From: Gadus chalcogrammus
Lineage: Eukaryota > Chordata > Actinopteri > Gadiformes > Gadidae
Assembly (NCBI RefSeq): GCF_026213295.1
Contig: NC_079418.1
Location: forward strand, 8,926,511-8,990,510
Length of the DNA stretch: 64,000 bases
Direction: 5' to 3'
Shown here: positions 3,194-52,179 of the stretch, one piece after another
Position numbering within the stretch: position 1 is the first letter of the stretch
How the letters are laid out: every line of letters starts with the position of its first letter
Program-made: the position numbers and the translations under genes
Notes under the pieces: model-generated
Seen by the model: the letters and a program-made list of their open reading frames with translations, nothing else
The model's database searches: none
What the model was told of the DNA's origin: nothing

Positions 3194-6100
3194 CAGAGGT
3201 GTATAAAGTACTTGAAAAAAATAACTAAGTAAAAGTATAAGTACCATAACTGAAAATTACTTTGGTAAAAGTTAAAGTCACCTAAAAAAAATGTACTTGA
3301 GTAAAAGTCTTAAAGTAGCTCACATTAAATGTACTTAAGTATCAAAAGTATCTTGTGAAAAAATATACTCAAGTATCAAAAGTACAAGTACAAGTATTTT
3401 ATAGTACGCATGAAAGGAAGCAAAACAACCCAAAATTATTCTCCCCTTGTTTTTTATTTCACTTTTTCAGGTGAATGAAATGTGGTATAGAATACCACTC
3501 AAAAATAAACAATGTCTTTAACATAAGAACCACTTTTTAACTATGTTGGGGGAATCCTCATGAGCTGAGGCACAGTAACACCACACAAACAAACTTTCTG
3601 GTTCAAGTGGAGAAGTTGAACTTGCGGTTCATCCTCAGCAGAAGCTGATTTTCAAAAGTGTCTGCAGCTAGCCGTGCTCTTTTTGGGCTGAAGATGAGAC
3701 CTGCTATGCTGAACAGCCTTTCGCAAGCTGCAGAAGCAGGCAGAGGTGTGTTGAGTTTGACAGACAACTTGAGAACCACAGGAAACGTCTTGAGAATCTT
3801 GATGTCGTCTGTTGAGTAGGCCAGGTACGAATCAAGCTGCTTGGTGGCGCTTGGTGTTTTGTGGGAACTTTTCAGGATGTGGAAGAAGTCTCCCTCATCA
3901 GATGAGCCAGATCCAGCCTCTGCTGAAATAGAAGGATCCTCCAACTGCTCCCTGATGTAGTCCAACCCTGAAACACAGGGAGGGTGACACTAGCATTAGT
4001 ACAGTCACATTTTTATTGGACAAATTTAATTACATTTATGACATTTTCCATAATTCTAAAGGAATAAATAATATTACATTGACAAAAAACACTCAGAAAC
4101 AAAAGGCCAAAATTAGCAACAAAAAAAGAGAGATATAAAGTAGAAAAAAAGTTGTGACAAATTGTGAAAATAACTGATCTACAACCAAGGCAGTTTGAGC
4201 TTGCAGGTGGGCTACACAAAATCAGGGAATAGATAAGGAGAAAAACACAAGTCTTGACTCTGACAATTAGACATCTTAGATATTGGCTCAACCACTATTC
4301 AAAATTAGACTGGTGTATGAAATGAGTAATAAAATAATAAAAAAAATGTAAGGGTGCATTAGATTTGTAATTTAATGGATACAATTTAATTTTATGGATA
4401 TTTTCTTCCTTTTATTTTCTCCATGTTGTCTTACCGTTTTTCAGTGTAGCATCATCTTTGATCCAGGCCGTTTTGAATTTTGGGATGAGAATCGCTGCAG
4501 CAACCAATTCAGGGTCTCTTGACATTTCACCAAAACGGTTCTGGATGCCCACTTGAATGGCTTCAACCAGCGGCTTGCAGTGCTTCAGTGCAATCTTTAT
4601 TTTTTCCAGTTTGCTGCTCAGCAAGGAAATAGTCGGAAGAAGCCATCCCATCTGGACTTCCACTTCTCCTTGGAGGATGTTGATGGACTGGGCAACAGGG
4701 CTCATGGTGGTGTAGTACTCTTTTAGGAAAGTGAGCTCAACTGGATGAAACCTGTTAGGGAGAAAACAAACCACTGTTTTACAATTATGCATGAATATTG
4801 TACCCAAAAAATAAAATAAAAATACATAAATACATAATTCAAACTTACATTGGCACCTTCAATTCTGCACAGATCTCTCTCAAAGCTGGCTCTCCCTTCT
4901 CTCTCAGAATCTTGAGGAGCCTTTCCACAGCCATAAACATTGAGTTCCACCTGGTGGCGTTTGGTCGTAGCAGCTGGAGGGAGCAGGCATCTTCCACAGC
5001 TTCAGCTGCTTGGCAGGATCTTCCACACTTATTCCACAGCCCATAACACTTGCTGAATGTTGAGCGTTGCAGTTTTTTGTATCCATCGTTGGCTGTTGCT
5101 TTTTCAGCATCAACTGTAGACACCAAGTTGAGCAGATGACAAGCACATCGTTGATGTTTCGGAAGCTCAAACTCAAAGCCATCATTCTCAACAAGGATTG
5201 AAGTCATGTCAACAAATTCCACTCCCTCCATCTCATTCCCTTCCTCATCCTCTTTCTCTTCTGCTTCATTATTGTTTTTGTCCACACTAAAAACTTGAAA
5301 AGCCTTCAGGAAGTTGGAGCCATTATCGGTTGTTGTCCTCACAACTTTGTTCCTGATGCCATATTCAGTATGGATGTCATTGAGTGCGGTGGCCAAAACA
5401 TCAAAGGTGTGGGAACCTCTTAGCTGTCTGCAAGCTAGGGCTGCTGATCGTCTAGTTAGGTCTGTAGAGTTCACCCAATGAGCAGTCACACCAAGGAAGC
5501 TCCTTCTCCTAACTGACCAGCAATCTGTAGTGGTGGCGATGTGGTCCACTTTACTCATCTCCTCAGTTAACACGTTTTTCATAGACTTTGCTAAATCTTC
5601 AATCCTTGATCGCAGGGTGACCCGTGTGATGACTTTGGCAGTAGGAAGAAGATCTGTGAGAAGCTCTCTGAAGGCTTCATTCTCGACAGTTGACAATGGC
5701 TGGAGATTGTTGACAACATACTTAACAATGGCCCTGTCAACAGCACTCTGAGATATGGATCGGGTAGCCAGCAACGTGGTCTGTTTGAGGGTGGAGGTCC
5801 CAGCTTCCGAAGCCCTCTTTCTTTTTTGTGAGGTCAGCTGCTCATATTTCTTTAGATGTTGTGGATGTGCTCTCTACATGAAAAACACAAAATTAAAAGA
5901 AATAATAATATTAGTTCAAATGATACTCAAGACATCATTCAACAGTTACCACAATGACAGGTCTGGATTTCTAACCCCTTTCACCCTGATGTCCCGTTTG
6001 TGGGCATGTCCAACATTAATAAAAAAAAAGAAATGTTGCTCAACTGTCAACTATATTTTATCTTTCAAAAATACCAAATAATTTAAAGCTAAAACATCAT

Positions 6101-7175: not shown

Positions 7176-7380
7176 TGAGTCTTTCCTGATTAATACAATT
7201 GTTATTGTTAGATACTTGAGATGCTTATGTGTGTATGCATTTATGTGCATGTAGGAATTACTGTTGTTATAACGTTTGTAGCTTACATTGTTATTGTGTG
7301 TGATTGCTGCAGGACTTCTTCACCTTTGTCATTAAATCCAAACTCTGACATCGAGGAGTGTATTTCTTCATGAAGAAGTC
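7176..7380. other. Leader upstream of the Gypsy ORF
   Basis: AT-rich sequence between the hAT target duplication and the Gypsy start codon. No primer-binding site or LTR boundary could be recognised. Confidence 0.3.
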
Positions 7381-10300
7381 ATGGTTGTCGTTGGATGTAC
7401 TGTTCCCGGCTGCGCTTTCGAGACCGGAGATGTGTCTGAAGCACTCGCCATTGCGCTGTTGACAAATCACGGACTTGTCCATCAGAACCCGCCGGCCCAG
7501 ATCCCGACTACGCATGGTCCGAAACTTGATCGGCCTAAGGTCGATGTTGGCGTGACGATAGAGGAATGGAACGTTTTCATCCATCGCTGGGACGGCTTTC
7601 GCACCGGTTCAGGCGTCGTGGCTGTCCACGCCCCTTTCCAGTTATTTCAGTGCGCTGGGCCTGAACTTGGAGATAGCATGTTGAAGGCCAATCCCAACAT
7701 CACCTCCGGACCCCTGGTGGATCTGATTGCTGCCATGCGTTCACTAACCGTCATTCCGGTTGCCACATGTGTCCTGCGCACCGAGCTGCTTCAGTTGCAC
7801 CAGGAGCGTGATGAAGCATTCCGTGCCTTCACCGCCAGGGTGCGAGGGAAGGCGGAGACATGCGCCTACGTTGCGGTATTCAAGTGTGGCAAGGATGTGG
7901 ACTATACCGACCACATCATCCGTGATGTTCTGATCAACGGGATTTACGACTCAGACATACGCCGCGAGACACTGGGGATACCTGACATTCTGACAAAACC
8001 AGTGAACGATGTAATTGCAGTCGTTGAAAACAAGGAAATGGCCCGCAATGCTCTCCCGTCGTCCACTCTATCAGCCATGTCGTCATTCCAGCGCCTACGG
8101 AGAGCTCTACAGACGGGCCCTGTCCCGACCCCAGCCCCAACAGACAGGGCTAGGCAAGCCTCGTGCCTGGGCTGTAAAAGCACCTTTAAGGTCTTCACGG
8201 AGGGACCTCGCGGTTGGAATACCAAGCCTCACCAGATTTGTGTCGGTTGCTATAGGGCCCGCCGACAGAAGAGGCGTCAACAGCCATCAAACGACGGTCG
8301 GCAGGCTGCCATGGAATCGGTGCCGATCTCCCAGATTTCATCGGTTCAACTCAAAGCACGCCCTGGCCGACGCTGCGGGGGCCGTCGCCGCACTCGGATG
8401 ACACACAGCACTATCGGTGGTCCCACACCCATCAGGCTCGGGCACCACATCTTCTCCAGGGGGGAATGGAGGCGGGCCAAGCTAAGAGACCACCCCCGAG
8501 TCTTAATCACCATCTCGGTCGACTGGTCAGTCGGGCCGCGGGGCAGCATCAACCACCGAGGCTCGGACAATGAGGTGAGCATATCCGCGATCGCAGACAC
8601 TGGCGCACAATCTGATCTGTGGTCTCTTGAGGAGTTCCTCGCCTGCGGATTCTCGCGTGATGACCTGCGTCCTGTTAATCTTAGCCTGTCAGCTGCCAAC
8701 CGCTCCCCCATAGCCATTGAGGGAGCATTCTTCACTAGGCTCTCAACAGCCCCCAGCGACAGTGGTGTTACGTCCTGCCGCTCGATGGTGTACGTGAGCA
8801 GCTCAGTTCGAGCGATGTACCTCTCCTACGAGTCACTGCCTAACCTCGGCCTCTTCCCTGCGGACTTCCCATCAGGTAACAGTGGAGGACCCAGAGACGA
8901 GCATGGCCCTGGCGCACGTGACATACCAATCAAGCCCTTGTTTGTGAATGCTACGAGGTCTGCCGACAGTGGCTGCACAGACCAGGGTAATCCCCAGGAC
9001 GCTCAGTGCTCATGCCACAAGCATACAGCCCCTCCACCACGGCCTCAGGCGTTACCGTTCCCCTGCTCACCGGAGAACAATGGTCGGATGAAAGATTGGC
9101 TACTAGAGAGATACGCCTCATCCACATTCAACACTTGCCCTCATGAGGCTTTGCCTTGCATGGAGGGGCCCCCTATCGAAATGCACGTGGAACCAGCAGC
9201 CACGCCGAAGGCATGCCACACCGCGGCTAATGTGCCTTTGTACTGGCAGCAGAAAGTCTACGACGACCTCCTTCGGGACAAAGCCCTTGGAGTCATTGAA
9301 CGTGTGCCATACGGTGAGCCAGTGACATGGCGCCATCGTATGGTAGTCACAAGGAAGCACGATGGCTCCCCCCGCAGGACCGTGGACCTTTCACCTCTTA
9401 ACAAGTTCTGCCAACGTGAAACCTTCGCCACTGAATCCCCATTCCACCTTGCACGTCGCATCCCAGGGGACACCTGGAAAACCGTCACGGATGCCTGGAA
9501 CGGCTACCATAGTGTGCCCCTGCGTGTGTCGGACCGTCGTCTGACCACCTTTATCACGCCCTTCGGCCGCTGGCGCTACATCAGGGCGCCGCAAGGTTTC
9601 CTGTCATCTGGGGACGGCTACAACCGTCGTTTTGACGCCATCCTCTCGGACTTCTAGCGCAAGGAACGTTGTGTGGATGACACTATCCACTATGACACTG
9701 ACCTGGAACATCACTGGTGGAGGACCATCGACTTCCTGACACGTGTCGGCCAGTCGGGCATTGTGTTGAACCCAGATAAGTTTCAATTTGCGGAGAGATG
9801 CGTAGACTTTGCTGGGTTCAGGGTGTCAGAAGCCACCATAGAGCCGCTTCCGAAGTACTTGGACGCCATCCGGGACTTCCCCACCCCGGACTCCACGACG
9901 GATATCAGAAGCTGGTTTCGCCTGGTCAACCAGGTGGCGAACTACGCCCAGTTGCGCGACGCTATGGCACTATTCAAGCCGTTCCTCAGCCCACGCTGCA
10001 AATTCTCATGGTCCCCTGAATTGGAGGAAGCCTTCCAAACATTCAAACAGGCAATAATTGGGGCCATCCGTGAGGGCGTGGAGATCTACGACATGCGGAA
10101 GCGCGCCTGCCTCCGCCCTGACTGGTCCAACAACTTCCTGCTCCAACAACATTGTAGCTGCACTTCGGGCATACCTGACTGTTGCCCCGGAGGATGGAGG
10201 ATCACCCTCGCCGGTTCGCGGTTCCTATCCTCGGCGGAGCAACGCTATGCGGCCATCGAAGGAGAGGCCCTGGCCGTGGCCTTGGGCCTGGAGCAGACAC

Positions 10301-11796
10301 GATACTTCACGCAAGGATGTGACAACCTCGTCGTGGTCACCGACCACAAGCCCCTTGTGAAGATCTTCGGCGACCGCACACTAGATGAGATAACAAACTC
10401 ACGCCTGTTCAGACTCAAGCAGCGTACCCTCCCATGGCGCTTTGACATTGTGTACCTACCTGGCAAGAGCAACCATGCTGCTGATGCGACTTCGAGGCAT
10501 CCTTCCCTCTCGGGCTCTGCGAACGGCCTCTCATTGGGAGCGCCTAGCGTACCTGACACTGTAGAATCCGCACTTATGGCTTCCATCCGCGACGATGCAC
10601 AAGAACTAGGAGCCATCTCATGGTCCCTTCTCGCACAAGAGACGGCAGCTGATGCGTGCCTCAGCCACCTTCTGTCCCTGATCGAGCATGAGGGTAGGGT
10701 TGATGTTAATGACCCTGCCCTAGCGAGTCTGTCACCAGTCTGTGGGTCAATCTACGCGCAGGATGGCGTCCTCCTATATCACGACCGTGTCGTGGTTCCA
10801 CCGTCCCTCCGTGAAGGAGTCCTTCGGCACCTCCATGCCGCCCACCAAGGAGCTTCTGCAATGGAGCAGCACGCCCGTGCCATAGTCTTCTGGCCCGGGA
10901 TGTCGAGGGACATCCGAGCCACCAGGTATGGATGTACAGACTGTAACCGCAATGCTCCGTCACAGGCATCCACGCCCCCCCTACCATCCTCACCGCCATC
11001 CACACCGTTTGAGGCGGTGTTTGCTGACTTCTTTGATTATGGAGGCCGCCACTACCTGGTTGTCGGTGATCGACTCTCGGGCTGGGTGGAGGTCCTCTGC
11101 TCCACAGCGGGCACTGATCTGGGAGGCTCGGCTGGCTTGGTTCGCCACCTACGCACGTTCTTTGCCACATTTGGCGTGCCGGAGGAACTTTCGAGCGATG
11201 GTGGTCCAGAGTTCAAATCTAGCCATACAGAGGACTTCCTCCGATTATGGCACGTCAGACATCGCGTGTCCTCGGTTGGTTTTCCACAGTCGAATGGGAG
11301 GGCGGAAGTTGCGGTGAAGACTGCTAAGCGTCTTCTGGTGTCCAACACTGGCCCAACTGGCGGTCTTGATCATGATCGTTTTTTGCGTGCCATGTTGCAG
11401 TTGCGCAACACACCTGACCCCGACTGCAACCTCTCACCGGCGCAGATTATATTTGGTCGTCCCCTTCGAGACTCTTTTTCTTTTGTCAACAGGCTAGAAA
11501 AGTTCTCGAACCCTCATATCCGACCGCTCTGACGCCAGGCATGGGCCGCGAAGGAGGACGCCCTTCGGACCCGGATATCCCGCATCACTGAGTCTTTGAG
11601 GGCTCACTCGAGACCACTCCGCCCATTGGTACTTGGTGAGACGGTATTCCTCCAGAATCAGCAGGGCCCGAGTCCACACAAGTGGGATCGGTCAGGGGTC
11701 GTGGTGTAGTCACTGGGTCACGATCAGTATCGGGTTAGGGTTGACGGGTCGGGGCGCCTGACTTTGCGCAACCATTTCAAGAGTTCAAAAAATTGA
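7381..11796 (+). pseudogene. Ty3/Gypsy retrotransposon gag-pol with three in-frame stops
   Basis: A single frame runs through the whole polyprotein and is broken by TAG at 9655, TGA at 11530 and TAG at 11707 before its natural TGA at 11794. In order it shows a gag-like N-terminus, a Cys-pair cluster near codons 260-300 instead of a classic CCHC knuckle, an aspartic protease with DTGA near codon 406, reverse transcriptase with VDDT at 9673-9684, RNase H ending near TDHKPL, and an integrase with an HHCC-like region, then D, D and E in VVGDRLSGW, SSDGGPEF and SNGRAEV. The first stop sits just upstream of the polymerase VDD motif, so the copy cannot make an unbroken product. No frameshift was seen. 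The RNase H start looks a few residues short. No LTRs were found on either side and no envelope gene is present. Confidence 0.9.
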
Positions 11797-16998: not shown

Positions 16999-37262
<20,264 letters not shown>

Positions 37263-37798: not shown

Positions 37799-40125
37799 AG
37801 CTGTGTTCGAAATTTGAGTGTACATACGACGTTCCCTACATGTTACTCCGTATACCACAATGCAATGTGCTCATGTTTTTCCGGAGGAGAAGAAGGCTTT
37901 CGTTTAGAAATTTCAACAATCTATTTGGGATTTAACATAGAAAATGTACCATTCAAAATTAATAAAAAATACTGTGATAAAGGAAATGTAACATTCAACA
38001 TCAGTACAACCTCCAGCTTTCCTCGTGAGTGCCCGGTTTGTTAAAGGTCCCATGACATGCTATTTTATGTATTCTTTAATATAGGTATTAGTGGGCAACT
38101 AACACAGTATTCAAAGACGTTCCCGAAATTCAGCCGTGGTGCAGAGTTACAGCCACTCCGAGCCAGTCGCACATTGAGCTTCCCCCAAATGCGCTGTTTT
38201 GGTGTCTGTAGCTATAATGCAAATGAGGAGGAGCGGGTCAAGGAGGAGGGTGGGGGTGTGGCCCTGAGCAGCTTGCAGCCACGGTACCATTCGCTCTGTT
38301 TACAGTGGATGTATCGCAATGGCGAGGCGCACACAGCCTTTAGCCGTGTTCTGTAAATATTCTAGAACACACGGGAGTCCTGGAGCTCTATATCAAAATA
38401 TTATCATATAGCCTACATAGATATCTATCATATAAATTATATTATAACGGCCAAAAGATGTGTGAGCCGATATTATGAATCTCAAACGACCGCGTTGGGT
38501 TCTCCGACGTTCCTGGTTCTTCAACGTCCTCATCAATTTGAAGTAGACTGAACCACGACAAGGAGGAGAAAGGGATCGTTGCCGGGCAGCGCTTAGGCAC
38601 CTCCGCCTCCGGCGGTGGTCCCTCAGCGGGTCTCAAGCTGGAGACATTCGCCGCCAACAATCCCTTTCTCCTCCATGTCGTGGTTCGTGTTCTTGAGGGA
38701 GTCAAAGCCAAAGTTCCTTCCCCCCAATTCATTCTCAACCTTGGCTGAGATAACCCCCAATACGAGTCTCGTTGTAGAAATACCAGAGACGAGAGTCCGA
38801 CAGAACGGTTATCCAAATAACAAGGAAGTGTACAACATTTGCGTTACAGTCCCGGAGCTCTATATCTAAATAATATCATATAATACATAGAAATCTATAT
38901 CATTTAATACATATTATCACGGCCAAAAGCGGTGTGCCCCTCCAGACGATATAATGAATCACAAACGACTTTGTCGGGTTCTTGGACGTCTCTGGTTCTT
39001 CCACTTTCACATCAACCTGAAGTCGACTGAACCGCGCGCTGCCTGCTGCCGGCTGCCCGCTGCCGGGCGATGGTGCCTCGCGGAAACCGGCGGCATGTCG
39101 CAGTTCATGTACTTCAGCGAGTCAAAGCCAAAGTTCCTTTCCCCCAATTCCTTCTCAACCATGGCTCAGATAACCCCCACAACAGTCTCGTTGTGGAAAT
39201 ACAAGACACGTCAAAGAACCGACAAGAAACACTTGCGTTACAGTGTGTGTATTCACACACACAAACACACGCACACACACACGTGGCGCTCGCACGGTCG
39301 AGTCTCATTGGCGGGCCAACGTCTCTGGGCCGGCCAGGCAGAGTAAGGGGAGGAGCTGAGATTCCTGATGACGTCAAGAATACAGACATTCCAAATCAGC
39401 GCACTTGAGCTTCCGTTTTTTCAAAGGCGAGCAGAACAGCTAGTGCTCGTTTTACACCAAACGCAAGTTTTAGCCATTGGGGGACCATAGGCAGGCTAGG
39501 GGAACTCATATTTATGTTAGAAAACAACACAGTCTCACTCCCTACTCGTCAAACGTGTGACGCATGGCCAAGGATCCCTGGCGTCAATTTCCGACGAAAA
39601 AGTGGTACCCTTTTCGTCGTTTTTCAACGCGGGGTCCGTCAGATAGACATTCATGTTAATCCCTCAGCGTCGGATATAGACGAAAGGAAATCGATGTTTA
39701 TCAACGGTGATGCCGTAGCTATTGTCTATTGATTTGTTTGACAGATTCACCATTAAACGTGTTTCTAATGCCATTTCTAGCGAGAAATGTACCTTTTCCT
39801 TGAATAATCTTCAGTCAGTGAATGTGTATGATCTTTATTAATATTTATTATCTGAATGGGAAATGCAATATTTTAGGACCGATTCACCGTTAAACGTGTT
39901 TCTAATACCATTTCTAGCGAGAAATATGCTTTTTACTTGCATAATCTTCAGTCAGTGATTGTGTCTGATCTTTAGTTTTATAGTTATCAGGAACACTTTA
40001 TCGGCTCGCTCGCATGTTTCAACGACGTCAGGTTGCTAGGGACGCTGCTTTCGCTAAACTAGCAGCTCACGTGTTTCCTGCGTTTGTGTTATTAAACCGT
40101 TACTTTATGTAACTTTTAATGATAT

Positions 40126-41131
40126 TGTAATAACCACAGGCGAGGTAGTGAGCGAAGTAAGCTTGATAGCAGGTTTATTGGATTCCACAATCGGACAGGC
40201 AGGCACAGCTCCACCGGAAAACTACAACAACCAAAACTCCCGCCCGGAAGGAAACCCCCGGAACCCCCTCTCAGAAGGCCCGCCCCTTCCCCCCAAACCC
40301 TGTGACGCTACAATACAGGCCCCCAGGACTGGTGCATATTTCCGGAATCCACCAGTGCTCAGAGGCCACGCCTGGTATTGCAGTCGGTTTAGTGGGCTGT
40401 GGACGGGTCCCGGAAGTAGATATCCTCGTTCACTCCAATACAAGTGGGGAGCAGGAATGTGTCTCCGCAGAAAATGTGTGGATATCAATCAAAGGTTCAT
40501 AATTATCTTTATACCGTGTACTAAAAAAATGTACGTTTCTTCTTTTCAAAACGCCACCTCAAGCGTTTTATTAGCCGTTATCTCGCTGGGGAAGAGGGGT
40601 GTGCAGCTGAAAGGAGTCGTAGTGAAACAAATGGCATCCGAGAGGGCCTAGTTCAGTGCTCCGTTAACGTGTCCGATTTTTGGACTGGTTCATCTGCTGC
40701 TCAATAACTCTTACGGTACTCTGCTTGCAATCATTGTGATTCATCATGTATTGATCCATTTATTCAAACGATCCAAAGACAAAGAACAGGTGCATTACGG
40801 TATAATTTTATATTGTTGTTGGACCGGAGTGGGTGGATGGGCACGGATCCCTGGCGTCGATTTCCGACGACAAATGGGTACCTTTTTCGTCGTTTTTCAA
40901 CGCGGGGTCCGTCAGATAGACCTTCATGTTCAACACGGTCTCACTCACGTGCAGGCCCCCACCCTCGTGTTCTTCCAAGGCCCTCCCCCAGCTGACCTAA
41001 TGATTCGCCCCCACACTGATTGACAAGAAGAACATTACAATACAAGCACATAGAACAACTGGCATAACGGACAACGAAATACAATGCAACACATAACACA
41101 CAAACTATTTAACTGTCCCAGGGTCGCTACA
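40126..41131 (-). repeat. Mirror copy of the candidate solo LTR, left arm
   Basis: Inverted counterpart of 44719-45724 at the exact mirror position, with only a few substitutions. The LTR was therefore present before the arms were duplicated, or was copied between arms. Confidence 0.5.
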
Positions 41132-44100
41132 ATATCGTAAATACGAATTCGTTCTCAGCCTATTTTTGCCATTTATTTACCGTGTTACTATGGCAGAATA
41201 AAGAATAAATTCATGCATCATCATTCAACTTGAACATGTGTTTTTACAGTATAGAGTGGTGGAGAGGGACGACGTATGTTGGCAAACCCGGAAGTGAGCG
41301 TCGCCCTCGGTTCCCTTGACAAAAAGCCAACGGGTTTTCCTTTGGATTAGTGCAGAAAAATGTGCATCTTTGAAGCAACTCCTCAAAAATGGAAAATAAA
41401 TAAATAAATAAAAATAACCGTGCTCCAAAGAACGAAGTGTAAACCAATGCATTCTGAATGGGAGTGTTTCTCCAATTTTTCCATGCTACACAGAACGAAA
41501 TGTAAACCCATGCAAATAAAGACTTCATGTTCATAATAATTTAAATATCATTAATCTACAGAGTGTGTAGGGAGGTATTATATTTTTTTCAACGGGGCTG
41601 AATCCAGTCACTTGACCGTCATGGTTGCTATGGTGGTTGCTATCGACCGCCCCCTCTAATACTCGTGGCTCTAAAAACCACGCGGCAAAGGAGCTGCCGT
41701 AAATTGTGTTGTTTTTGTCGTAAACTAGGGTCCGATGGTTGAAAAATAGACAGATATTCCAAGGTATCCTTAAAAGGCAGCTTGGATGTGTTTATTTTCT
41801 GCAGTTTAGACTTCTATAACTCATTTTTGAAAGCAGAACACCAAGCTCATTGATTTAACAAGGGAGGGTTATTTGAAACAATTTATTAAATAAATATTTG
41901 TGAGAGGTCATTCCTTCTCCTGATTTTACTTCCTATTTATGTCTAGGGTAAACCCCTACTGTCCACAAGCATCCCCCCCCTCCCCATATGGATTTGGAGA
42001 ATTGTTGCCACGTCCCAGTGGTGGAGGTATCATATATATATGAAAGAGGGCATTCAATTATAGCCTACTACAATGATCAATTAGGAGGCCGAAGCCCTAA
42101 AGGAAGTGATCCAATAGGTGACTGAGTCGACAACATTTAAGTAAGCTGTATAGGGTCTCTTATATATCAAAGGGGGTCTCAAAGGACGCATACGCTTCAA
42201 CCTGTGGCTCCAGCACTACAGGAAATGACTCTGCAAGTGCTCCATCTCGTTGCAACTCACCCAGCGGCTCACTTGCAAGATTTTGGCCTGAAGTTCTTCC
42301 CAGACCTACACCCTAGCCATCCAACATGCATATCTGAGAATCAGGCCTCTCTTTAATAATGACAAAAAGTTATGAGAGAAACACACATTAACTTTTTGTT
42401 ATCTCATAAGCGGCGTGGTGCCGGCTCCTTTTGACCTTTTGACCCCAGACTTCAAAAACGTGGCCACAGGCCAGCTGTGTCTACACACCTTTAGCCACAA
42501 ATGTACACCTCCATCCCACAAAAAATGGGGACTAGAAACTAACCTCTGTCTTATGTACATTTACTGTACTGTTGGAGGTCACGCCCCTTTGCCGACCTTT
42601 TCGAGATAGCTAGGGATGCTAAAATGTTTACACACATTTCCCGGGGCCCCGTGAACGACATATCCGAGATTTGGAGTTCTAGCCCTTAGAGAAAAAAAGT
42701 TTTCCCAAATGGAGTGTCATTTGGACAAAGCCCCTCAGAAGTGTAGCCTGCAAGACCTAATGGTTCAGAATGTGGTGGAAAAACAGTTTTTGAGATAGGA
42801 AGGTCCTACCGCCCTGAAATTTTAATACCTTATTCTAGGCCCTAACTGGGACCTCCGCACCGAAACTTGGCCCGGTCGGACCCCGAGGGCAGGGAGGGGG
42901 GGCCCTTCCTGCCCGAAACTTGGCCCGGTCAGACCCCGAGGGCAGACCCCACCCTTCCGGCCCTCGGGGTCCGACCGGGCCAAGTTTCGGTGCGGAGGTC
43001 CCAGTTAGGCCCTAGAATAAGGTATTAAAATTTCAGGGCGGTAGGACCTTCCTATCTCAAAAACTGTTTTTCCACCACATTCTGAACCATTAGGTCTTGC
43101 AGGCTACACTTCTGAGGGGCTTTGTCCAAATGACACTCCATTTGGGAAAACTTTTTTTCTCTAAGGGCTAGAACTCCAAATCTCGGATATGTCGTTCACG
43201 GGGCCCCGGGAAATGTGTGTAAACATTTTAGCATCCCTAGCTATCTCGAAAAGGTCGGCAAAGGGGCGTGACCTCCAACAGTACAGTAAATGTACATAAG
43301 ACAGAGGTTAGTTTCTAGTCCCCATTTTTTGTGGGATGGAGGTGTACATTTGTGGCTAAAGGTGTGTAGACACAGCTGGCCTGTGGCCACGTTTTTGAAG
43401 TCTGGGGTCAAAAGGTCAAAAGGAGCCGGCACCACGCCGCTTATGAGATAACAAAAAGTTAATGTGTGTTTCTCTCATAACTTTTTGTCATTATTAAAGA
43501 GAGGCCTGATTCTCAGATATGCATGTTGGATGGCTAGGGTGTAGGTCTGGGAAGAACTTCAGGCCAAAATCTTGCAAGTGAGCCGCTGGGTGAGTTGCAA
43601 CGAGATGGAGCACTTGCAGAGTCATTTCCTGTAGTGCTGGAGCCACAGGTTGAAGCGTATGCGTCCTTTGAGACCCCCTTTGATATATAAGAGACCCTAT
43701 ACAGCTTACTTAAATGTTGTCGACTCAGTCACCTATTGGATCACTTCCTTTAGGGCTTCGGCCTCCTAATTGATCATTGTAGTAGGCTATAATTGAATGC
43801 CCTCTTTCATATATATATGATACCTCCACCACTGGGACGTGGCAACAATTCTCCAAATCCATATGGGGAGGGGGGGGATGCTTGTGGACAGTAGGGGTTT
43901 ACCCTAGACATAAATAGGAAGTAAAATCAGGAGAAGGAATGACCCCTCACAAATATTTATTTAATAAATTGTTTCAAATAACCCTCCCTTGTTAAATCAA
44001 TGAGCTTGGTGTTCTGCTTTCAAAAATGAGTTATAGAAGTCTAAACTGCAGAAAATAAACACATCCAAGCTGCCTTTTAAGGATACCTTGGAATATCTGT

Positions 44101-44718
44101 CTACTTTTCAACCATCGGACCCTAGTTTACGACAAAAACAACACAATTTACGGCAGCTCCTTTGCCGCGTGGTTTTTAGAGCCACGAGTATTAGAGGGGG
44201 CGGTCGATAGCAACCACCATAGCAACCATGACGGTCAAGTGACTGGATTCAGCCCCGTTGAAAAAAATATAATACCTCCCTACACACTCTGTAGATTAAT
44301 GATATTTAAATTATTATGAACATGAAGTCTTTATTTGCATGGGTTTACATTTCGTTCTGTGTAGCATGGAAAAATTGGAGAAACACTCCCATTCAGAATG
44401 CATTGGTTTACACTTCGTTCTTTGGAGCACGGTTATTTTTATTTATTTATTTATTTTCCATTTTTGAGGAGTTGCTTCAAAGATGCACATTTTTCTGCAC
44501 TAATCCAAAGGAAAACCCGTTGGCTTTTTGTCAAGGGAACCGAGGGCGACGCTCACTTCCGGGTTTGCCAACATACGTCGTCCCTCTCCACCACTCTATA
44601 CTGTAAAAACACATGTTCAAGTTGAATGATGATGCATGAATTTATTCTTTATTCTGCCATAGTAACACGGTAAATAAATGGCAAAAATAGGCTGAGAACG
44701 AATTCGTATTTACGATAT

Positions 44719-45724
44719 TGTAGCGACCCTGGGACAGTTAAATAGTTTGTGTGTTATGTGTTGCATTGTATTTCGTTGTCCGTTATGCCAGTTGTTCTAT
44801 GTGCTTGTATTGTAATGTTCTTCTTGTCAATCAGTGTGGGGGCGAATCATTAGGTCAGCTGGGGGAGGGCCTTGGAAGAACACGAGGGTGGGGGCCTGCA
44901 CGTGAGTGAGACCGTGTTGAACATGAAGGTCTATCTGACGGACCCCGCGTTGAAAAACGACGAAAAAGGTACCCATTTGTCGTCGGAAATCGACGCCAGG
45001 GATCCGTGCCCATCCACCCACTCCGGTCCAACAACAATATAAAATTATACCGTAATGCACCTGTTCTTTGTCTTTGGATCGTTTGAATAAATGGATCAAT
45101 ACATGATGAATCACAATGATTGCAAGCAGAGTACCCTAAGAGTTATTGAGCAGCAGATGAACCAGTCCAAAAATCGGACACGTTAACGGAGCACTGAACT
45201 AGGCCCTCTCGGATGCCATTTGTTTCACTACGACTCCTTTCAGCTGCACACCCCTCTTCCCCAGCGAGATAACGGCTAATAAAACGCTTGAGGTGGCGTT
45301 TTGAAAAGAAGAAACGTAATTTTTTTTAGTACACGGTATAAAGATAATTATGAACCTTTGATTGATATCCACACATTTTCTGCGGAGACACATTCCTGCT
45401 CCCCACTTGTATTGGAGTGAACGAGGATATCTACTTCCGGGACCCGTCCACAGCCCACTAAACCGACTGCAATACCAGGCGTGGCCTCTGAGCACTGGTG
45501 GATTCCGGAAATATGCACCAGTCCTGGGGGCCTGTATTGTAGCGTCACAGGGTTTGGGGGGAAGGGGCGGGCCTTCTGAGAGGGGGTTCCGGGGGTTTCC
45601 TTCCGGGCGGGAGTTTTGGTTGTTGTAGTTTTCCGGTGGAGCTGTGCCTGCCTGTCCGATTGTGGAATCCAATAAACCTGCTATCAAGCTTACTCCGCTC
45701 ACTACCTCGCCTGTGGTTATTACA
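44719..45724 (+). repeat. Candidate solo LTR in the right palindrome arm
   Basis: The segment begins TGTAGCGACCC, ends TTATTACA, has AATAAA about 50 bases from its 3' end, and is flanked by ATAT on both sides. These are LTR-like features. It contains about 90 bases that also occur at the palindrome terminus (TCTATCTGACGGACCCCGCG). No internal retrotransposon sequence accompanies it. Confidence 0.5.
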
Positions 45725-46570
45725 ATATCATTAAAAGTTACATAAAGTAACGGTTTAATAACACAAACGCAGGAAACACGTGAGCTGCTAGTTTAGCGAA
45801 AGCAGCGTCCCTAGCAACCTGACGTCGTTGAAACATGCGAGCGAGCCGATAAAGTGTTCCTGATAACTATAAAACTAAAGATCAGACACAATCACTGACT
45901 GAAGATTATGCAAGTAAAAAGCATATTTCTCGCTAGAAATGGTATTAGAAACACGTTTAACGGTGAATCGGTCCTAAAATATTGCATTTCCCATTCAGAT
46001 AATAAATATTAATAAAGATCATACACATTCACTGACTGAAGATTATTCAAGGAAAAGGTACATTTCTCGCTAGAAATGGCATTAGAAACACGTTTAATGG
46101 TGAATCTGTCAAACAAATCAATAGACAATAGCTACGGCATCACCGTTGATAAACATCGATTTCCTTTCGTCTATATCCGACGCTGAGGGATTAACATGAA
46201 TGTCTATCTGACGGACCCCGCGTTGAAAAACGACGAAAAGGGTACCACTTTTTCGTCGGAAATTGACGCCAGGGATCCTTGGCCATGCGTCACACGTTTG
46301 ACGAGTAGGGAGTGAGACTGTGTTGTAGAAAACCTCATAAAGTGAGATTTTCATGTCATGGGACCATTAACATGATGTGGGCGCATCTGTCTGCGTCACA
46401 CAAATACCCGGGGCATTTACTGACGTAAATGATGTTTAGAAATGTTCAGCGTAGTGTCCGAATTCTTGTGTGTTCGTTCCCTCTTCCGTGCACTATATCA
46501 TATATATATATATAACACGATATAGGGAATAGTGAGTGAGTGAATAGGGAACGATTTCGAACACAGCTTA

Positions 46571-48240
46571 TGACTGAGTAGGTAGGTGCAGTTCTGGTGC
46601 CTAACGCGATAAACGTCTTGGTGCTTAGTCATGGTAATACCTTGCTCCCTTCAGCACACAACAAGGTGACTCTTAACTTATTTTAATGTCCAATTAAAAA
46701 TCCTGCTTGACCCCTGTGTACACAATAGGGTTACGCTTGACTGATTTTGATATACATTTTAAAATCTTGCTTAAGCATTATGTAAACGATAAGGTGCAAC
46801 TTTGCTTATTTTAATATCTATATTTTTTGTAACACCTTAATCATTACGTAGCCACCCTCGACACTGCATAGCCACCCTCCCCCTTCTGGCCACCATTGTA
46901 TTGTACTATAGTACTTAACTGTAGAAACTGCAGTAGCTGCTATCATGGCTGTAACACGGGGAATTGGTTAGCCTAGCGATTGTTGTACTTGCACTTGGTT
47001 CTATGAACATCCTTTCTGTACCGACAGCAATATATTGATGCACTTCTTACGACAAATGTACTTATTGTAAGTCGCTTTGGATAAAAGCGTCTGCTAAATG
47101 CCCCAAATGTAAAAAAATGTAAATGTAAACGTTCACAATAAGCTTAGCTTTTATATATAAACGCCTGCTTTATGTAGGCTACACAATAAGGTGAAACGCA
47201 ACTTTTTTTAATGTATATTTTTTATTTGTATAAAAATACAATTTTTAGCAGCTTCTCAACATTGGGCGATGTGCAAACGATTCAAACGTAATGTATGTAA
47301 GCAAATAATCTTTACACAGTGAAAGATTTCAGGGTTCTGACTGCATTCCTGAGGTAGTGGGCAACAATGTCCTAAAATATTTGTCTTTAATGTTTCCTCC
47401 TGGATTTCGTTGACGGATTGACACCAACTCCCTATTTCATTCATTTCTTCCAGTTAACCTAACAACCACTCTTTAAAAATATGATGTATGAATAATATTA
47501 GTTATTAAGTAATGCTCAGAGTTTATGGTGCGTTCACATCGCGCGAAATGATGGGGAAAACACAACGTCGGAAAGTTCTCCTGAACGACACCACATGACG
47601 CTGTTATGATTCTACTTCCGTTCGGCAACTGGGGCCAGATTTTGATAACAGAGTTGTCCAGTTGGTGACGTATGGTTTACTAGTGACGTGCATGAACATG
47701 GCGGAACATGAAAGTTTTACTCGTAAAAGAAAACCATCATATCACATACTTTACCATTGATTGACGTAACCGCCTGTTGGCATCAACTTTGCTCACTTGT
47801 AAACCAGCTCTAGATAAGGGCAAGGGTTGCCTTCCATACCATACAGTGCCAATACTGTCTGTGCATCTCATAAATAAAAGCAAAAGGATAGTAGGTGATA
47901 TGCATCAAGGAAATAAAGGCATGCAAACTTGAAACTGATCCTACCAAGTTCTGTTTAGTTCTGACTGGTTTTTATCGCATAGAAAAACCCTGCTGTGAAG
48001 AACTTTTAGATTCCCAACGCAGTGAACGGTCGCTGTCGGGAACACACAAGCGTCATCACTAGCAAGACGTCTCGTTATCCCCAGGATGATGAACGCACCT
48101 TTATTTCCATGCAGAATGCAATGCACATAATCTGCAGGCCATGTGACTCTGGGGGGGGGAATCATGGTCATAGTTGCAACAATCCAAACCCAGATGTTTA
48201 TTCATTAACAATTTTCCTGTCTCTCTATCTTTTTATCTCT
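46571..48240. other. No gene; scattered repeat fragments
   Basis: Degenerate AT-rich sequence with several AATAAGGTG-type repeats near 46620-46800 and 47190. A SINE/L2 tail lies at about 47068-47105 (GTCGCTTTGGATAAAAGCGT). A possible MITE start is near 47528 (GGTGCGTTCACATC). Confidence 0.5.
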
Positions 48241-50636: not shown

Positions 50637-51230
50637 TATTTTATGCGGTAGTCTTTGTTGTCTAACCCAGCAATTCCCAATCCGGTCAGTGGAACAGCTA
50701 GAACCGGACTTTGAAATATTTCCAGAAAAAGAAAAAACTACTTTTGTGTGTGAATCTCAGTTGACGCTTCTTGAGTTTCTCTTAATATTTACTTTATATT
50801 ATTCCATTGTAAAATGGAGCCTGAGACTCGTTTCCCGAAATAGACGTCCTTCAAAAAAGGGGGGGGGGGGGACTTAACCTCGTGGGCTCAGGTGACGGTA
50901 ACTACCGTAACAAAGGCGGGACCGGGACCCCTCGCGCTTGGGACAGAAAGTGCATTTCAGTGATTCTATATTCATATTTACATCGTCATAGTCAGGTTTG
51001 GCGCGTGACTTGCGATCACACACGCACGCATACAGGTGAAGGCGCGATCCCGCGCCTCCATGTAAACATTGACGTCTCGTGGCTCCTCGTCGCTTCAAAG
51101 GGCCGACTGTTTCCCGCCGTCTCTGAGCTGCGGGGAGACAACATCAAACAATCAACACACCGGGGCTCGCGCCGAATTCAAACCATGGTCTTCCTGCCCT
51201 CGCTCGTGCTCGTGCGGCTGTCTCACTCAC
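50637..51230. other. tcf15-like intron or downstream region
   Basis: No second exon of the bHLH gene could be recognised here. A G run lies near 50860-50870. The short minus-strand open frame around 50880-51090 shows no bHLH-family C-terminal sequence. Confidence 0.45.
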
Positions 51231-51725
51231 CGCTTTCCTCTGGTCGCTGAGGCAGAACGTGCAGATGGGTCTCAGCGAGGAGCCGCACGCGCCGACGGAG
51301 CCCTGGTACCGTAGACAGGGCCGCCGCTCCTCGCGCTCCTCCTCCCCCGCCCCGAGGAACAGCACGTTGGCCAGGTGCGCGATGTAGCCGGACGCCAGCC
51401 GCAGCGTCTCGATCTTGGACAGCTTCCGGTCCGCGGGCTCCGTGGGGATGAGCTCGCGCAGCGCGGTGAACGCCGTGTTCACGCTGTGGGTCCGCTCCCG
51501 CTCCCGGGCGTTCGCCGCCTGCCGTTGCTTGGTGACGCCCGGCAGGTGCCTGCTGCCGTCGATCCCCCCGCCCACCGCCGCCCTCCTCCGGGAGGGGTCT
51601 CTGGCGTCTGTGCCTCCGCCGCCAACGCCCGTGGACTCGTCGGAGCCGTCGCCGCTGTCTGAGTCATCCGAGTCGGACGGGAAGCCGTCCGGTTGCGCGC
51701 CTGCGTCTCTACCCGTGGCTTTCAT
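51231..51725 (-). CDS. tcf15-like (paraxis/scleraxis group) bHLH factor, exon 1
   Basis: One exon of 165 codons runs from an ATG at 51725 to a GTGAGT donor after [14 protein letters not shown] sequence. The acidic Ser/Asp-rich N-terminus is followed by a bHLH domain at about residues 66-120: basic region [20 protein letters not shown], then [20 protein letters not shown]. The Cys-rich [12 protein letters not shown] end is shared by TCF15 and scleraxis. [10 protein letters not shown] and YIAHLANVL favour TCF15; ELIPTEPAD is scleraxis-like. Such factors dimerise with E-proteins in the nucleus and direct paraxial mesoderm or tendon development. The frame stays open upstream to 52097, but this ATG precedes the conserved part. 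A TATATTTA motif (minus strand) lies near 52011. Exon 2 was not found. Confidence 0.88.
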
Positions 51726-52179
51726 GGTTGGCTTCGAGTCGACTGTGCCCGGGTGGGAGCGCGCGGAAAGGCGCCTGACAGGCAACGGCCCATGACCGCG
51801 AGCTGGAGTGAAAATAGCACCTGCGGGCAGCAGCTGCCGCGCGATCCGGTGACCGTGGGGGGCTCGCGCTGCGCGTCGCGTTGGCAGATCAGTGCCATGT
51901 CTAGAGTGACGGGTCCTTTCTTGGTCGCCAGGACGCGGGGTTTCGGGAGGGAGGAACAGGTGGGGGGCGGGATAGGAGGACACCTGTCGCGATCCGGGGA
52001 GAGCGACGGAATAAATATAACGACGCGGGTCCCCCTGCCTCCCGTGCGGAATTGACGCAGCGCGCGGGTCTAAATATGCCCCTACTTGACGTGACACGCT
52101 GCCGTCAGAACCTCTGACCTTAGATCCCGTTGGTTGCTGTTCTCAATTCTGAATCGATGAAACATAGGTTATTTTTATG
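51726..52179 (-). other. tcf15-like 5' region
   Basis: GC- and CpG-rich sequence, as expected for the promoter and 5' UTR of a developmental bHLH gene, with a possible TATA-like site near 52011-52020. No other gene was recognised. Confidence 0.45.

Follow-up and report, generated by a model that had tools for sequence, protein, structure and literature searches.

A near-perfect 6.8-kb palindrome in Gadus chalcogrammus as a probable non-autonomous fold-back transposon with KDZ-bearing relatives

Fold-back members have been described in the P and Mutator superfamilies, and Zisupton is known from fish. Published systems are cited throughout this text from excerpts of the papers named. In those of a 2025 survey (PMC12730594), fungal Kyakuja elements of the Kyakuja-Dileera-Zisupton (KDZ) superfamily have 7-bp target site duplications (TSDs), CA..TG ends and no terminal inverted repeats (TIRs), and TSDs of 8 bp are given for Zisupton and for the first-examined Dileera family. 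Cryptococcus KDZ1-KDZ3 are about 9-11 kb long, carry TIRs of 139-241 bp and have been demonstrated to move (PMC12810828). Among the papers listed for Kyakuja, Zisupton, KDZ and fold-backs, within a coverage that leaves most subscription journals outside, no title or abstract opening describes a KDZ fold-back. Here, we describe a palindrome of 6.8 kb in a stretch of 64,000 nucleotides from Gadus chalcogrammus (contig NC_079418.1, labelled C7 below; C7:8926511-8990510), referred to in its entirety as the window. It is highly probable that this palindrome represents a fold-back DNA transposon of the non-autonomous kind, in a family with a KDZ transposase gene in its long members.

The palindrome occupies window positions 39525-46325, where base i pairs with base 85850-i. 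Its left arm (39525-42890, forward strand) and right arm (42960-46325, reverse strand) are each 3,366 bp long and align without gaps, differing by seven substitutions at 40155, 40530, 40531, 40714, 41746, 41905 and 42840 and their mirror positions. Between them lies a G+C-rich spacer of 69 bp (42891-42959), in which mirror mismatches become dense, leaving the centre asymmetric. The symmetry ends abruptly at 39525, as 19 of the 25 positions in 39500-39524 are mismatched, and a 7-bp duplication, TAGAAAA, stands immediately outside on either side (39518-39524 and 46326-46332, both read on the forward strand). With 6,732 of its 6,801 bp in inverted repeat, the palindrome belongs structurally to the fold-back class, and a chance origin is excluded. 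The original prediction, drawn from the letters of the window, had given the arm length, the 69-base spacer, the mirror sum of 85,850 and the flanking TAGAAAA exactly, and had counted by eye about six of the seven arm differences, rightly all as substitutions. It had also seen no transposase, in agreement with the lack of any Pfam match among nine open reading frames of the left arm, one of which extends into the left flank. Rfam, at its gathering threshold, returned nothing within the palindrome.

The same ends occur at many other sites in the fish's own genome, of which 629.9 Mb in 168 contigs were searched. At least 46 matches to the initial 1 kb of the arm are present, many of them as inverted pairs; the number is a lower bound since 40 of 2,240 candidates were scored. 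The 23-base terminal motif CAACACAGTCTCACTCCCTACTC (39525-39547, forward strand) has 89 matches at no more than one mismatch, 52 forward and 37 reverse, and the reversed control pattern has none. Convergent neighbours within 20 kb form 18 pairs, which take up 36 ends out of the 89, and no partner is listed for the others; two pairs of ends lie in tandem, and none face away from each other within 10 kb, with one such pair at 11.6 kb. Both ends were read for 17 of the 18 convergent pairs, the one left out being a 66-bp pair on C2. Termini of the family read 5'-CAACACAG..CTGTGTTG-3', with CA..TG at the extreme ends (except for a GA at one terminus of L037), and the inverted arms measure 0.5-3.4 kb in most copies read.

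A perfect 7-bp TSD surrounds 12 of these 17 pairs, and one more (L024) retains six of the seven bases. Besides TAGAAAA in the window, the duplications are TATTTTA (L009), GTTATGT (L010), AATAACC (L011), GCCTGCA (L012), GCAGCAA (L013), TCTAATG (L015), ATAAGAC (L017), ACGCAAT (L021), CACCAAA (L037), CTAATGT (L038) and GTCAGGT (a 10.7-kb copy on C10). An 8-bp duplication, as in Zisupton and Dileera, is excluded in seven of the perfect cases (L010, L011, L013, L015, L037, L038 and the C10 copy) and possible in five (window, L009, L012, L017 and L021). Copies elsewhere that share the ends and have duplications of their own, which the original prediction had proposed to look for, are thus present.

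Two long loci, on C12 (L020+L041) and C8 (L050), begin with the family end and carry KDZ transposase genes; the KDZ domain is found in these long members and not in the nine open reading frames compared with Pfam from the palindrome in the window. Arm positions 1-1346 (window 39525-40870, forward strand) are mostly common, in pieces, to the left ends of the two loci. On C12, the left end matches the arm at 98.6% over positions 1-858 and at 95.3% over 905-1326. An inverted segment corresponding to arm 182-543 resembles the left copy at 97.5% and terminates at a distance of 18.4 kb from the left end. The KDZ gene lies between this left TIR and the inverted TIR remnant. Its exon with the PF18758 domain, at L020:7831-8208, matches with an E value of 2.5e-18 and 67 bits against a cut-off of 26.6, and a B-box-like zinc finger is encoded upstream of it. 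On C8, the family end is interrupted by a retroelement and arm 673-1061 is absent, after which the KDZ gene follows. The two genes are 95-97% identical in nucleotide sequence. The two loci become homologous no more than 6 bp from the CAACACAG end, their flanks being unrelated, and a further 1 kb on the downstream side of the gene matches at 95-97% as well (10523-11574 of the joined C12 locus; near 22581285-22582600 on C8). In amino acids, the C8 exon is 89% like that of C12, and for seven further KDZ loci in the comparison the likeness to the C12 exon is 76-80%. As a separate observation, L042, L044, L045 and L046 (on C13, C66 and C8) have near-equal KDZ scores, are each 80% identical to the C12 exon and perhaps represent a second, young KDZ family.

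Several observations weigh against the reading of the palindrome as a non-autonomous member of a KDZ-bearing family. The genome holds 22 KDZ loci, and only these two lie behind a listed family end, at 6.8 and 7.6 kb and on the same strand. By our own arithmetic, about 0.01 such placements would be expected by chance. A third, at C7:3031863, is 7.2 kb from a family end and on its wrong side, and by eye all the others are more than 20 kb away from every one of the 89 listed ends. The C12 right TIR lacks its outer 181 bp, which do not turn up in the following 3 kb either, and the C8-C12 comparison omits 8 kb of C8 between the gene and the downstream match. With the C12 right TIR truncated and C8 read from its left end, no KDZ gene was found between two full termini with a TSD. 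Among the 17 pairs read, a TSD is lacking in three (L014, L016 and L027), and the flanks of one (L022/L023) are inverted. L025, also with inverted flanks, came from a 1-kb match outside the 89 ends and was omitted from the TSD count.

The small number of such loci leaves some room for the KDZ gene to be a passenger behind ends that are moved by another enzyme. That foreign sequence does get joined to family ends is seen at L030:1501-2960 (C1:24190575), where an old TIR end, reaching to about arm position 528, is joined to a DUF4218-like fragment in two frames. This fragment was considered as a transposase and rejected: its Pfam match is weak (E 0.023, 15 bits against a cut-off of 27), and we treat it as joined foreign sequence. 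Forty related proteins occur in the public protein set, mostly on short contigs; there is no relative of solved structure, and no right TIR stands within about 10 kb. We nevertheless regard a passenger as improbable, for the combination of end and KDZ gene is common to two loci at unrelated sites with 95-97% identity, and the TSD length and CA..TG ends agree with a KDZ lineage.

A P-superfamily fold-back resembling Drosophila Galileo, mobilized in trans by a P/THAP transposase, would account for the TSD length, the CA at the start, the long and internally repetitive TIRs and the occurrence of copies without a TSD. Indeed, 7-bp TSDs together with long TIRs suggested the P superfamily, which was set aside once the KDZ gene had come to light; the transposase behind the family end in both long loci is of KDZ type. 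Zebrafish P elements (Pdre2), moreover, combine TIRs of 13 bp with TSDs of 8 bp (PMC10983969). A P-type origin appears unlikely. Dada, with TSDs of 6-7 bp in the excerpted literature, was put aside because a KDZ gene had been found. Concerning the enzyme, the original prediction had proposed either a hAT-, P- or Mutator-like transposase acting in trans or an unknown class of DNA transposon. Dependence on an enzyme supplied in trans is probable, and the proposed affiliations are not supported, the transposase carried by the related long loci being KDZ.

How the palindromes spread can be followed from their sites and centres. The copy L011 interrupts another member of the family, which gives its exact empty site: AATAACC stands on both sides of L011 and once in the uninterrupted counterpart, which is seen in the left arm of the window at 40129-40135 (forward strand). 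One copy in the empty site and two around L011 mean that the element was inserted with a 7-bp duplication. A tree of the first 780 bp separates a young group, to which the window belongs, from an older group with support of 100/100, in a bootstrap that is not fully settled. We compared the centre in 12 copies, the window included. The asymmetric spacer is complete or nearly so in seven of the 11 others, directly in L010, L013, L018 and L019 as in the window, and in reversed orientation in L014, L015 and L011, the last shortened by about a dozen bases; L009 and L016 retain part of it. The window, L010, L011, L013 and L015 have this centre at different sites and within different TSDs. Comparison of the copies thus indicates that the palindrome of the young group was formed once and that whole palindromes then moved, which bears out the original prediction that the object moved as one unit.

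Counting against a single formation, the common centre was not found in L017 and L027. Because of these two, the wider family may have acquired its palindromes on more than one occasion, and older palindromes of the L017/L027 type may have a separate origin. The stronger proposal, that palindromes of the young group arose independently at each site, for instance by inverted insertion of two copies, could appeal in addition to the varying lengths and internal deletions of the copies and to L014, L016 and L027 with their missing TSDs. It is very unlikely, given that the same asymmetric centre recurs in the window and the seven copies named above and that a perfect TSD encloses the whole pair in 12 of 17 cases.

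An assembly or long-read fold-back artefact is the least credible explanation of the palindrome in the window: two other palindromes (L022/L023 and L025) do look artefact-like, running into their flanks and having more gap positions than mismatches between arms, but here the symmetry stops exactly at the element ends, the flanks differ, a TSD is present, and the palindrome recurs elsewhere with the same centre and other TSDs. The first of those two (L022+L023, C7:8029402-8047055) is a palindrome of 17.6 kb with 576 gap positions versus 250 mismatches between its arms, and L025 (C11:2093333-2097876) is one of 4.5 kb with 48 versus 15. Both look like either long-read fold-back artefacts or larger true palindromes. 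The 17-kb pair L022/L023 was also considered as an autonomous element and rejected, the entire stretch being palindromic into the flanks; by eye its open reading frames include no KDZ-like frame, and no family search was made on them.

The old copy L024 has an inverted repeat of 0.94 kb and a single occurrence of the interior that corresponds to arm positions 1679-2822. In young copies, the same interior belongs to both arms (window 41203-42346 in the left arm, forward strand). The simplest reading would be an ordinary long-TIR element in which an inverted copy of one half took the place of the other. L027, L037 and L017 are further palindromes, in which the likeness of the arms ranges from 87 to 99% by stretch.

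Six palindromes of 6.7-6.8 kb (window, L009, L010, L013, L014 and L016) have arms of nearly full length that are 98.6-99.8% alike, with 7, 25, 7, 6, 45 and 11 arm-to-arm differences, respectively, per about 3.3 kb. We used these six, omitting shorter copies and including the TSD-less L014 and L016, to compare variant columns, dropping those with gaps or more than two letters. Across the 95 two-letter columns that vary, the variant occurs in exactly two arms in 25, and in 23 of these both arms come from one element (L013 12, L016 7, L009 3 and the window 1). Same-element pairs make up 6 of the 66 possible arm pairs, which gives a binomial p of 3e-22; this value is a guide only, because one conversion tract can carry many columns and the columns are not independent events. 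When L016 is removed, 16 same-element and no different-element columns remain. Such private substitutions, common to both arms of one element, indicate that arms were copied onto their partners within single elements after the lineages had split. Assembly polishing could have inflated the likeness of the arms, which speaks against this.

A mechanism consistent with these observations would begin with a long-TIR element, half of which may have been replaced either by a template switch between TIRs while a gap was being repaired or through synthesis on a hairpin. A KDZ enzyme produced elsewhere in the genome would then act in trans, binding the subterminal repeats and cutting at CA/TG, and the whole palindrome would be inserted by a 7-bp staggered cut. 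Later copying from arm to arm in single elements could proceed by gene conversion or cruciform repair. More tentatively, and as a possibility we would not favour at present, the family may represent a vertebrate KDZ lineage with Kyakuja-type insertion and a self-homogenizing non-autonomous palindrome, whose halves are copied via a hairpin or cruciform, perhaps during transposition, so that new copies stay near-perfect with long matched arms.

The arms contain repeats of their own, here given for the left arm on the forward strand. A 94-bp subterminal repeat has an outer copy at 39564-39657 and an inner copy at 40837-40930 that are 91% identical, and a terminus-like motif, CAACACGGTCTCACTC, follows the inner copy immediately on its 3' side (40931-40946). 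Two direct repeats of 105 bp, 88% identical and spaced 137 bp from start to start, lie inside the long inverted repeat at 39740-39981. Elsewhere in the window, a UnaL2 LINE (long interspersed nuclear element) 3' element stands 0.7 kb downstream of the palindrome (47054-47107, forward strand), and a 27-bp minisatellite has 16 copies with 98% match (28958-29407). By eye, two adjoining long open reading frames of 773 and 624 amino acids (7336-11529, forward strand) resemble a retroelement polyprotein with reverse transcriptase and integrase, one of 342 amino acids (4848-5873, reverse strand) resembles a hAT-type transposase, and one of 332 amino acids (51147-52142, reverse strand) has a bHLH-like domain and is possibly a host transcription factor gene.

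Breakage and inversion are known to arise from long near-perfect palindromes. In this family, defined ends and a TSD of 7 bp appear to go together with a KDZ gene of an animal, and its copies offer a ready set for counting arm-to-arm copying. It also illustrates that palindromes in assemblies need not be artefacts where the TSD test is passed.

Several described systems share features with the family. Tm1 of root-knot nematodes is likewise of the fold-back class, but is Mutator-type according to the title of its description (PMC3169594). Zisupton belongs to the KDZ superfamily, as the long members here probably do, and differs in its TSD of 8 bp compared with 7 bp (PMC12730594). The Cryptococcus elements resemble the family in being KDZ elements that bear TIRs, yet their TSDs are 8 bp (KDZ1) or 4-8 bp (KDZ2 and KDZ3), their TIRs are shorter, and no fold-back form appears in the excerpts (PMC12810828). 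Because KDZ2 and KDZ3 produce TSDs of 4-8 bp, TSD length alone is not diagnostic of a lineage.

Fungal Kyakuja is closer in its insertion, sharing with the family a transposase of the KDZ superfamily, a 7-bp TSD and 5'-CA..TG-3' ends. As a point against a close tie, the excerpts describe fungal families as TET/JBP-bearing and without TIRs, whereas TIRs here are 0.5-3.4 kb long; the palindromic copies, moreover, show no transposase. Drosophila Galileo is closer in architecture, with 7-bp TSDs, long TIRs that contain tandem repeats and are lengthened by recruited internal sequence, and TSD-less copies among others (PMC3573991). In contrast to our family, it has a P-superfamily transposase and TIRs of up to about 1.26 kb, and is not a near-complete palindrome (PMC3573991). 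On present evidence, the mode of action resembles that of a Galileo-type fold-back and the affiliation is with KDZ.

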